A stretch of DNA of 64,000 nt from Thioalkalivibrio sp. ALJT. GTDB lineage: Bacteria > Pseudomonadota > Gammaproteobacteria > Ectothiorhodospirales > Ectothiorhodospiraceae. Shown in pieces: positions 61,117-64,000 of this stretch. The stretch covers positions 1-64,000 of the forward strand of contig NZ_KB907126.1 in assembly GCF_000381825.1 (NCBI RefSeq). The letters run 5' to 3'. A model generated the notes under the pieces. It ran no database searches. It was not told the origin of the DNA and saw only the letters and a list, made by a program, of their open reading frames with translations. Both the position numbers and the translations under genes were made by a program. Each line of letters opens with the position of its first letter. Positions within the stretch are counted from its first letter, which is position 1.

Positions 61117-62565
61117 TCAGGAGGCCAGGCGGTGGCGGTGCTCGTCGGATGCAGACGCGGGCTGGCCCAGACGCCGCTCCAGCTCACGTACGCCGCGGGC
61201 ATGCACGCCGGACAGCGCGAACCCCGCCACCCGACCCCGGGCGTAATACTCGAGATGGCGCCCGGTGCCGTCACCGACGATCTCGACCCACTCGCCCGCG
61301 CCCGCATCGCTCTGCTGCGGCGGGCGCACGTTCAACGGCAGACTCGAGGTCTTGACCTGCACGATGCCCGCATCCGGCTGGTAGGCCGTGGGCTCGCCGG
61401 AGAGGGTGCGTGCCAGCGCCGCCGCCTGCCCGCGCAAGGTCTCCACATAGGGCCGCAGGCGGCCGTCGAACTCGCAGCCATCGCCCAGGGCGTGAATCGC
61501 CGGGTCCGTGGTTCCCAGGAAGGCATCGACCTCAATGCCCTGGTGACAGGCAAGCCCGATACGCTCTGCCAACGCCCGGTTGGGCACCAGACCCAGGGCA
61601 CTGATCACGACTTCGGCCTCGATCGTGTCTCCACCCGCCAGGGACAGTCGTCGGCAACCCTGCTCACTCATCTCGATCCGTTCCACCGTAGCCCCGGTAT
61701 GCCACTGCACGCCACACGCTTCGAGGGCCGCGCGCAGATCCTCCGCCAGTAACGACGGGAGCAGCCCGGACAGCGGCCCCGGCGCACGTTCCACCAGCGC
61801 AACCGGATAGCCACCGGCACTCAGGTCATCTGCGAGTTCACAGCCCACAAGACCAGCACCGATGATCGCCACCCGGGTCCGTTCCGGGGCGGCAGCGCCG
61901 GCTTCCAGCGCCACACGCAAGCGACGGTAGTCATCCAGACTGTTCACCACCAGCGGGGCCTCGGCACCACCGGCAAACGCCAGCTGTCGCGGCCGCGCAC
62001 CGGTTGCCAGTACCAGCTGCCCGTAGGCGATACCCCCGCGCGGGGTGATTACGCGCTTGCGTTCGCGCTGGACATCCAGCACCCGCAGGAACGGCATCAG
62101 CTCGATGCGCAGGCGGGCCGCACGCGCCGGTCCGGTTTCCTCGACCAGGTCCGCGGGCGCTACCTCGCGCTGGATGGCATTGGAAAGGCGTGGCTTGCTG
62201 TAATAATCGCCGGAATCCGCAGTAATCAGACGGATGGTACGGTGCGGATCCCGCTCGCGCAGGGACTCGGCCAGCGCCCAGCCCGCCATGCCGCCACCGA
62301 TGATCACGATCGCGTCCGGATCATTGCCGCCTTCGGGCCCGCTCCAGACACTTGCTACGGCAGTGGTATCGGGCTCGGCCGCGCGCGGCTCCAGGGCCGT
62401 GAAGTCGGCCTTGGTCACGTTACAGTCGGGACAGTACCAGTCATCCGGGATGTCCTCGAAGCGGGTGCCGGGTGCGAGCCCGGAATCCGGATCGCCCCTG
62501 GCCTCGTCGTAGATGTAGCCACACACCTTGCAGATGTAGCGTTTGAAATCGTCGGTGTTGCTCAT
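61117..62565 (-). CDS. Rubredoxin / NAD(P)H:rubredoxin reductase fusion
   Basis: 482 residues from ATG 62565, which overlaps the DUF302 stop (TGATG) and has GGAGG seven bases upstream. Residues 1-55 are a rubredoxin with iron ligands Cys12, Cys15, Cys45 and Cys48 ([20 protein letters not shown]). After a linker, residues about 85-480 are a flavin reductase: FAD motif [20 protein letters not shown] motif [17 protein letters not shown] and the FAD closing motif [10 protein letters not shown]. Electrons should pass from NAD(P)H through FAD to the fused rubredoxin. The partner may be the acyl-CoA-dehydrogenase-like protein upstream in the operon or an oxygen-detoxifying enzyme. Confidence 0.9.
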
Positions 62566-62945
62566 CACGCGGCCTCCAGGCTGTCGAGAATGGCCTGCAG
62601 TTTTGGATCCAGTTCGGCCCCGATCGCCTGCAGGTCGGGCTCACCCCATGGGGCAAACACCGCACTGGCAGGTCGCGTGCTGACCCGCAGGACATCGCCT
62701 TCACCGGACACATGAATACGCAGCGGGATATCGATGCCGGCGGGCTTGCAGGCCTGCCAGACCCGCACGGCGTAATGGGGGTGGAACACCTCGAGAATCT
62801 GGTCGGTCGGGACCTCGACCCCGATCCTCGCCGCATTGGCCTGGCCGTTGATATGTGAGACCAGCTTCAGGCCCTGGGCCTCGATCGCCTGCTTCAGACG
62901 CTCCACGGCGTTCTCCGGGTCCATTCGGGTGATGGTTTGCAACAT
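62565..62945 (-). CDS. DUF302 domain protein
   Basis: 126 residues from ATG 62945 with AGGGAA upstream. DUF302 pattern: [60 protein letters not shown], then [18 protein letters not shown]. No signal peptide, so cytosolic. DUF302 proteins often occur in sulfur and metal contexts but have no assigned reaction. It lies between the acyl-CoA-dehydrogenase-like gene (65 bases) and the rubredoxin fusion (overlap). Confidence 0.85.
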
Positions 62946-63010
62946 GGGGATTCCCTGGATTCGGGGCGCGCCCCCGGTCACACCGGGGCCGGCCGGGTTG
63001 GGGCACGAAT

Positions 63011-64000
63011 TCAATGCGCGTGAATCCGCGCCAGCTCCTTGCGCAGGTGCTTGATCGCGGGCGTCACGATGGCGACAAAGTACGACTCGCGGAGCTTGCG
63101 CTGGGCCGCGGCATCCGCCTTGTAACCGCGCGCACCACAATGCAGCAGCGCGGACTGCGAGGCGCGCAGCGACATCTCGGAACCGGTCAGGCGCAACTGC
63201 AGCACATCGGCAAAGAACGCCTCGGAGTCATCGAACGGGGTCTCCGCCAGCGCGTAGCAGGCGCTACGGGCATCCCCCAGCACCTCCTCCAGTTCACCCA
63301 CCTGGTCATCCAGGTACCCATTCACATGTGCCAGGGTCTCGTTGGCCTCGCGCATGGTCTGGATACAGCCATCAATCAGCCCCAGCCCCATGCCCATCTG
63401 CAGCAGCACGAAGCCGGGACGGATGCGGCGGATGTACTCCGGCAACGGGTCGGCGAGGATATGGGCATCCGGCACGAACACCCGGTCAAAGTGGCAGCCG
63501 AAGGTGCGCGAGCCCTCCAGTGCGGTGAATTCCGGGCAGGCGGTCAGGCTAAAACCGGGATCAGCGCAGTTGATCAGCGCCATCAGCGGCCGCGGATTGT
63601 CACCGGTGGTGCGGAAGATGGCACCGAAATAGTGATCCTGGCCCAGATTCGAGACCCAGGGCAGCGCGCCGGAGACCACGTAACCACCGTCGACCCGCTC
63701 GGCCGTCAGTTTCAGGTCCTCGATATTGGCGAACCATTTCATCGGGTTGGACAGCGCAGTGGCGCCCAGCGCCTCGGCGTTGGCCAGCTTCGGCAGGGCC
63801 TCGCGCTTCAGTACGTCGGAGGCGCTGTTCTCGACATACCAGGCGCAGGCGTTCTGACACCAGGCGACAAAGCCGGTGGTCATGCATTCGGCGGAAATCA
63901 CCTCGGTCGCGCGGATGGCCCCGGCGATATCGGTGCTCGCCGTCGCGTTCTGGCTGGCCAGATGACGCTTGAAGGCGCCCAGGCGACCGGCCTCGCGCAG
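63011..64000 (-). CDS. Acyl-CoA-dehydrogenase-like flavoprotein (5' end outside window)
   Basis: 329 residues are visible and the frame is open to the right edge (LREAGRLGAFKRHLASQNAT), so the true start lies beyond it. Middle domain: ALGATALSNPMKWFANIEDL, LKLTAERVDGGYVVSGALPW and VFVPDAHILADP; C-terminal helices: SLRASQSALLHCGARGYKAD and RKLRESYFVAIVTPAIKHLR. The substrate is unknown; the linked rubredoxin/reductase suggests a redox role, perhaps a DszC/SfnB-like flavin monooxygenase rather than beta-oxidation. No acyl-CoA synthetase or thiolase is near in the window. Confidence 0.8.
   Translation of the reverse strand: MREAGRLGAFKRHLASQNATASTDIAGAIRATEVISAECMTTGFVAWCQNACAWYVENSASDVLKREALPKLANAEALGATALSNPMKWFANIEDLKLTAERVDGGYVVSGALPWVSNLGQDHYFGAIFRTTGDNPRPLMALINCADPGFSLTACPEFTALEGSRTFGCHFDRVFVPDAHILADPLPEYIRRIRPGFVLLQMGMGLGLIDGCIQTMREANETLAHVNGYLDDQVGELEEVLGDARSACYALAETPFDDSEAFFADVLQLRLTGSEMSLRASQSALLHCGARGYKADAAAQRKLRESYFVAIVTPAIKHLRKELARIHAH

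Follow-up and report, generated by a model that had tools for sequence, protein, structure and literature searches.

What does a flavoprotein of the acyl-CoA dehydrogenase (ACAD) fold do when it is encoded beside its own rubredoxin and rubredoxin reductase? The question is raised by the last genes of a 64,000-nucleotide stretch of DNA from Thioalkalivibrio sp. ALJT (the window), which begins at the contig start and covers positions 1-64000 of contig NZ_KB907126.1; genes beyond its edge were read on the same contig with the same numbering. As described below, these genes belong to a widespread cluster that is most simply read as a unit for thiocyanate-to-cyanate assimilation. A role in forming cyanate appears likely, and is held with more confidence than thiocyanate as the substrate. 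The full proposal, in which a flavoenzyme fed by NAD(P)H and rubredoxin oxidises imported thiocyanate to cyanate for cyanase as a nitrogen-source route, is put forward tentatively and with slightly more doubt than confidence.

The operon, on the minus strand, consists of four genes, the first of which lies just past the window edge. This is an OsmC gene (64185-64748; OsmC, 3.1e-21), followed after 34 bp by the likely start, at 64150 in the contig, of the gene for the ACAD-fold flavoprotein (63011-64000 in the window; 379 aa; PF02771, 3.6e-10). A DUF302 gene comes next (62565-62951; PF03625, 1.6e-06; start picked by homology) and overlaps by 4 nt a gene for rubredoxin fused to an FAD/NAD(P)H rubredoxin reductase (61117-62568; 483 aa; Pfam Rubredoxin 6.8e-23, Pyr_redox_2 2.2e-46, Rbx_binding 1.5e-10). 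The NCBIfam and Pfam hidden Markov model labels used here are annotations, not tested functions. An earlier note on the window had described its three genes as tightly spaced with two overlapping, had seen a complete NAD(P)H-to-rubredoxin chain in one protein and had found no beta-oxidation genes alongside; all of this was confirmed, the last among the open reading frames (ORFs) read around the operon. Extension to the right, which the same note had recommended, revealed the flavoprotein start, OsmC and, divergent from the operon, two NitT-type ATP-binding cassette (ABC) importers, a sigma-54 regulator and cyanase.

When gene neighbourhoods were compared, the order OsmC, ACAD, DUF302, reductase recurred in ten further loci of the same family, and a recheck with phmmer recovered all four operon genes in 11/11 home-family loci, the window's own included; in L022, L023 and L026 some of them had been masked by wrong or antisense ORFs in the mechanical gene calls. 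Importer 2 was missing in two home loci, L021 and L026. A family profile search of genome contigs gave at least 556 relatives, and the best 80 of these, minus 11 Thioalkalivibrio loci (L029-L039), formed a distant set of 69 loci spanning alpha-, beta- and gammaproteobacteria and cyanobacteria; class labels were taken from record titles, and members of one class are not independent of each other. An OsmC gene was located directly upstream, on the same strand and within 400 bp, in 60 of the 66 distant loci with at least 1 kb of upstream DNA, the 66 coming from four bacterial groups. The six loci without it were gammaproteobacterial, five from Halomonas or Vreelandella and one from Thalassolituus, and those five carried an OsmC gene elsewhere in the locus. 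Because the four genes stay together in every home locus and OsmC precedes the flavoprotein gene in most distant ones, the arrangement is not due to chance.

Linkage to cyanase was the second recurrent feature. In the window's contig, cynS (73483-73914, plus strand) is accompanied by ABC importer genes and by a gene for a GAF/sigma-54 activator (68255-70000, plus strand), which together constitute a cyn cluster. Among 37 genomes of the home family, the ACAD gene was present in 17, and in 17/17 of them cyanase was found 2.9-10.5 kb away, whereas only four of the 20 ACAD-negative genomes had any cynS match, one being a stop-broken remnant below the cut-off (Fisher 5.9e-07, a generous value, as is the one below, since kinship makes the genomes non-independent). 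In an even sample of 299 Pseudomonadota genomes, with the ACAD gene in 13 and cyanase in 44, cyanase was detected in 11/13 ACAD-positive genomes versus 33/286 others, or in 10/12 positives when the window's own genome was left out (Fisher 7.8e-08), and it lay at most 11 kb from the ACAD gene in 8/13. The distant loci showed cyanase within 10 kb in 42/69, or in 26/38 of those with both 9-kb flanks. OsmC, cyanase and the NitT-type importer, all encoded outside the window, are thus recurrent partners, and on gene content they point to thiocyanate/cyanate nitrogen metabolism.

Two observations concern cynS itself. The remnant mentioned above (G005:C2:421721-421900) covers 60 profile positions with one internal stop, and belongs to a near-complete relative without the ACAD gene, an apparent loss of the pathway. 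In the window's contig the gene after cynS (C6:73978-76467) resembles, to judge by eye, one for a periplasmic binding domain fused to GGDEF-EAL domains, and the same was seen in L019, L021 and L026.

The clue to the substrate came from the importers, both encoded on the plus strand. Importer 1 consists of an ATPase (65145-66008), the binding protein SBP1 (66054-67337) and a permease (67334-68173), and importer 2 of SBP2, a permease and an ATPase (70186-73433). SBP1 and SBP2 are clearly different types, with about 118 bits shared against about 1000 for self, and a binding protein of one type or the other was encoded within 10 kb in 60/69 distant loci. SBP1-type importers follow the thiocyanate hydrolase (scn) genes in 4/4 gammaproteobacterial loci (448-467 bits versus 107-118 for SBP2), of which three were scanned and have a gamma subunit exceeding the TIGR03887 cut-off, the fourth being assigned by phmmer (456 bits); cyanase was near 3/4 of them. 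The binding proteins of the scn loci fell in one clade with 20/23 of the SBP1s linked to OsmC-ACAD (Shimodaira-Hasegawa-like approximate likelihood ratio test 99), and four nitrile hydratase control loci gave no SBP1 match. Cyanase clusters without the ACAD gene, in contrast, carried the SBP2 type in 3/3 (757-798 versus 103-116 bits). In a reverse search of the 299-genome sample, SBP1 was found in 14 places, 12 of them beside this ACAD family (three with OsmC-ACAD and nine with an AhpD-like gene and a pANL-type ACAD), and of the 28 distant loci in which SBP1 was the sole importer type seen, 15 also had cyanase. On balance, thiocyanate would be the most probable single substrate, with cyanate as the most probable product.

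At the remaining two SBP1 places, L179 (G125:C43) and L180 (G149:C45), the adjoining large genes resemble, to judge by eye, those for sensor kinases and response regulators, and no ABC1- or permease-type match was found nearby; the SBP1-type proteins there possibly sense the same anion.

The same importers bear on a cyanide monooxygenase, in which the same electron chain would make cyanate from cyanide diffusing inwards, the ABC importers would serve cyanate and rhodanese would act as a side defence. Such an enzyme would also explain the linkage to cyanase, and it would fit both the many clusters whose only importer is of the SBP2, cyanase-cluster type and a two-domain rhodanese gene present in 25/69 distant loci; peroxide is able to oxidise cyanide to cyanate, and such a pretreatment is mentioned in the part of PMC6627978 available. 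However, cyanide would leave unexplained both the occurrence of SBP1 at thiocyanate hydrolase loci and the placing of SBP1 importers mostly beside this ACAD family, so that we regard it as unlikely.

The flavoprotein itself was then compared with acyl-CoA dehydrogenases. Its AlphaFold2 model (predicted local distance difference test score, pLDDT, 92.9) has the ACAD fold, and the top structural match was isovaleryl-CoA dehydrogenase 4kto (Z 42.2 over 354 residues, root-mean-square deviation 2.3). However, the catalytic Glu of the C-terminal EGT motif is replaced by Thr in 18/18 family rows, and this residue, Thr363, is invariant across a 56-row family alignment. As Glu occupies that column in only 14/19 ACAD references, the other five also being without it, this point alone is not decisive; the comparison covers the EGT-motif column, and an isovaleryl-type base would sit elsewhere. 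In place of the ACAD motif TEPxxGSD the family has SNPMK or, as with SNTVK in the Neisseria row, something close to it, and the residue after the replaced base is Pro, which is also the case in L144, the SfnB reference. In the window's own genome, listed as 100% complete, neither a second ACAD nor any further match to the flavoprotein was found, there was no match to PF00441, PF08028 or SfnB (TIGR04022), and electron-transfer flavoprotein (ETF; PF01012) was not found, with the control positive in 10/14. An ordinary acyl-CoA dehydrogenase using rubredoxin as its electron acceptor would account for the fold match (Z around 42) and for the profile matches to ACADs, but with the base lost, no ETF found, no acyl-CoA genes seen nearby, an SNPMK-type loop instead of TEPxxGSD and the tree position given below, it was set aside as highly improbable. 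Judged by its residues and context, the flavoprotein is probably not an acyl-CoA dehydrogenase. Because the Glu is lost, the family forms its own clade, and the genome has no other ACAD and no ETF that could be found, a dehydrogenase handing electrons to ETF in this genome is very unlikely; the adjacent rubredoxin chain would be the natural partner of the flavoprotein.

The tree included 18 family rows, 19 ACADs and seven rows that matched the PF08028 or SfnB models. The family formed a clade of its own (100/100), with the ACADs apart (99/98), and grouped neither with true ACADs nor with SfnB or HsaA. Among the seven rows, labelled MO in the tree, L144 is a true SfnB (616 bits to TIGR04022), L131 and L141 are HsaA-like, L124 and L129 are FadE16-like, and L132 and L133 were unscanned. 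Given the long branches of L144, L116 and L141, the HsaA-like rows may be joined falsely to the family and the deeper placement is unsure. DszC-type chains do not appear in the structural match lists, to which no weight is given. A kinship with DszC and SfnB, for which the earlier note had recommended a tree, was not upheld, and membership of that group was discarded on the evidence of profile and tree; of the note's proposed monooxygenase or desulfurising system, the sulfur chemistry stays plausible by way of thiocyanate and the rhodanese gene.

Two further explanations are affected by these results. In the first, a DszC/SfnB-like flavin monooxygenase would desulfurise organosulfur compounds (sulfonates or sulfones), and the adjacency of cyanase would reflect shared nitrogen/sulfur control. 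SBP1 and SBP2 do match the SsuA family, below its cut-off, and distant relatives adjoin cysteine synthase on pANL-type plasmids, but the position outside the SfnB/HsaA group, the absence of an SfnB match in the own genome and the cyanase linkage in four bacterial groups make this improbable, somewhat more so than cyanide oxidation. In the second, reductive or non-redox chemistry on another small C-N/C-S anion (e.g. hypothiocyanite, cyanamide or isocyanide) would yield cyanate. The distinctness of the family from the references in the tree would allow it, as would a fold class that includes non-dehydrogenases such as 3-sulfinopropionyl-CoA desulfinase; nevertheless, no positive evidence for any such substrate was obtained, and we consider this explanation about as unlikely as the cyanide one.

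The source of electrons was examined across the loci. The four Fe-binding Cys of rubredoxin are kept in 47/47 aligned relatives and the nucleotide-binding glycines of the reductase in 45/45, so that the Fe-binding Cys, the FAD and NAD(P)H glycine motifs and the rubredoxin-binding domain are all present. Rubredoxin was encoded in 31/31 and the reductase in 30/31 of the gamma- and betaproteobacterial loci, an HcaD-like ferredoxin reductase was present instead in 10/22 alphaproteobacterial or unassigned loci, and in L082 a 2Fe-2S ferredoxin occupies the rubredoxin position. As rubredoxin is exchanged for ferredoxin among loci, the gene content speaks for a one-electron carrier as the donor to the flavoprotein. 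This supports the electron-fed flavoprotein outside beta-oxidation that had been suggested from the window alone.

OsmC proteins usually have two Cys. The OsmC of this family has one invariant Cys, and position 170 is Ser in 82/82. The rhodanese of the distant loci keeps its active-site Cys in 26/26 aligned proteins; beside the rhodanese gene, two alphaproteobacterial clusters also carry a gene of the 2-hydroxychromene-2-carboxylate isomerase type (L059:12086-12706 and L112:9977-10582). The DUF302 model (pLDDT 92.5) had as its best PDB match another DUF302 protein, 1q9u (TM 0.86), and at E <= 0.001 the fold search returned 1q9u, 1j3m (hypothetical protein) and three chains of 7tj1 (titled fluoride transporter), and nothing else, which is uninformative on function. 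DUF302 had been proposed as a third component of the system, but its gene occurs in only 4/69 distant loci, which rules out an essential third part; by its distribution it is a lineage accessory. DUF302 is linked to C-N chemistry a second time on a Polymorphobacter plasmid (L194:6588-8321), where its gene directly follows nitrile hydratase-like genes.

From these data we infer the direction of electron flow, the use of O2, the substrate, the product and the handling of sulfur, and hence every chemical step, as follows. Importer 1 would bring in thiocyanate, and NAD(P)H would supply electrons that the reductase and then rubredoxin hand on to the flavoprotein's FAD, where, probably with O2, an O2-derived flavin oxygen species would attack the thiocyanate. 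The single-Cys OsmC would accept the sulfur and cyanate would be released; rhodanese or DUF302, where present, would take up the sulfur, with rhodanese moving it on, and cyanase would convert the cyanate to ammonia and CO2. The route would be inducible, with thiocyanate serving as a nitrogen and perhaps also a sulfur source. Regulation is indicated by the activator gene and by a sigma-54-like box upstream of OsmC (64794-64810, minus strand), identified with the sigma-54 consensus. Similar boxes occurred in 8/8 loci scanned, out of 11; as the threshold used yields 17 sites in 20 kb of L018, it is the recurrence and not the single box that constitutes evidence.

A number of observations weigh against oxidation of thiocyanate by this flavoenzyme. 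The nearest folds are isovaleryl- and glutaryl-CoA dehydrogenases (Z 41-42, best Foldseek E 4e-17). Among the 60 distant clusters with a binding protein, 32 have SBP2 only and 28 have SBP1, which rules out SBP1 as the importer of every cluster, and in the 299-genome sample SBP1 lies beside the gene in just 3/13 genomes that have an ACAD of the OsmC type. Possibly SBP2 importers transport either anion, or clusters with SBP2 only draw on a different precursor. The link between scn and SBP1 is not universal, as two plasmid-borne alphaproteobacterial scn loci had no SBP1-type gene within 8 kb (4/6 scn loci with an SBP1-type importer overall), and it comes from few loci, a search of 398 genomes for scn having given no match over the cut-off. 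Cyanase was absent from 12/38 full-flank distant loci and, among seven relatives read from the plasmid collection, was present in three (Marinobacter, Acetobacter and Caballeronia, annotated in the first two). In cyanobacterial loci the reductase was found in 0/16 of the stretches examined, where photosynthetic ferredoxin could feed the flavoprotein. All Guyparkeria carry cyn genes, yet just SCN-R1 is reported as growing on thiocyanate for energy in the available part of PMC9032823, and cyanase activity was not measurable in SCN-R1 according to that of PMC6504805. Finally, thiocyanate-oxidising Thioalkalivibrio use a copper enzyme and have no cyanase, as far as the excerpts of PMC6504805 and PMC5744179 go; therefore, the present operon would be a separate route.

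A sister subfamily was detected in nine places of the 299-genome sample, where an AhpD-like gene precedes the ACAD gene and an SBP1-type importer follows it; no cyanase match was found in the stretches read, and the SNAMK and Thr-Pro signatures were kept in 9/9 rows. Relatives 27-31% identical to the window protein have like positions in Roseomonas, with an AhpD-like gene, and on Synechococcus elongatus plasmids, where a DUF4242 gene precedes them and cysteine synthase is encoded nearby, with the SBP1 type in UTEX 3055. The pANL region is presumably sulfur-regulated, and these contexts hint that the sister subfamily could be a sulfur-supply version of the same chemistry. The part of PMC8049743 available holds nothing on the pANL ACAD gene. 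Relatives around 44% identical, preceded by an AhpD-like gene and not by OsmC, were also seen in Neisseria gonorrhoeae (L118) and on a Moraxella osloensis plasmid (L113); in L118, a 2.17-Mb record filed as a plasmid that looks like a chromosome, a rubredoxin-like ORF comes next and the stretch had no reductase match.

A wider proposal, which we consider doubtful, is that thiocyanate has a third route in biology, represented by both subfamilies. Its enzyme would be a cytoplasmic thiocyanate monooxygenase of ACAD fold that is fed by a redoxin and oxygenates the sulfur to the hypothiocyanite level, and OsmC, or an AhpD-like protein in the sister subfamily, would take the sulfur as a persulfide and free cyanate; between them, the OsmC/cyanase and AhpD subfamilies would then provide proteobacteria and cyanobacteria with nitrogen and sulfur. 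If thiocyanate is indeed the substrate, this widespread cluster would supply a candidate enzyme, importer and regulator for thiocyanate use, a genomic marker for that use and, if confirmed at the bench, a new nutrient route, in which an ACAD-fold enzyme, rather than donating electrons to ETF, would receive them from rubredoxin or ferredoxin. Cultured Guyparkeria and Thioalkalivibrio, for example, offer hosts in which to test the prediction, as does S. elongatus for the sister subfamily.

In comparison with known systems, the flavoprotein shares the fold of acyl-CoA dehydrogenases such as SCAD and IVD (Z around 40-42), but has no Glu at the usual base position, and neither an ETF nor an acyl-CoA context was seen. 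With SfnB, DszC and HsaA it has in common the fold superfamily, a presumed need for a reduced flavin and the Pro after the replaced base (as in L144), whereas it belongs to a separate clade and apparently receives its electrons from rubredoxin or ferredoxin; monooxygenases of those types are fed by a free-flavin reductase. No description of this cluster was recognised in the titles, abstract openings and excerpts of the open-access PubMed Central (PMC) papers searched. OsmC, acyl-CoA and rubredoxin go unmentioned in the excerpts on Guyparkeria (PMC6504805 and PMC9032823), and that of PMC5596200 is unrelated to the cluster. The thiocyanate hydrolase cluster, in which scnABC is followed by a NitT/TauT importer (PMC5328954, in part), of SBP1 type in the proportion given above, encodes a cobalt enzyme that hydrolyses thiocyanate to carbonyl sulfide (PMC5744179, in part), and the own genome had no thiocyanate hydrolase match (PF02979, TIGR03887). 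The cynFABDS cyanate assimilation cluster of Pseudomonas pseudoalcaligenes CECT5344, as far as it is described in the part of PMC6627978 available, likewise has a sigma-54 activator, an ABC importer, cyanase and a sigma-54 promoter; the present locus additionally has the OsmC-ACAD-DUF302-rubredoxin reductase operon and, beside the first importer, one that is of a different type. The thiocyanate dehydrogenase (TcDH) pathway of Thioalkalivibrio (PMC5328954, PMC5744179 and PMC6504805, in part) also has cyanate as its product, which is only predicted here; however, TcDH is a periplasmic copper enzyme used for energy gain in hosts without cyanase, whereas the present cluster combines with cyanase a flavoprotein that, judging from its partners, would be cytoplasmic.

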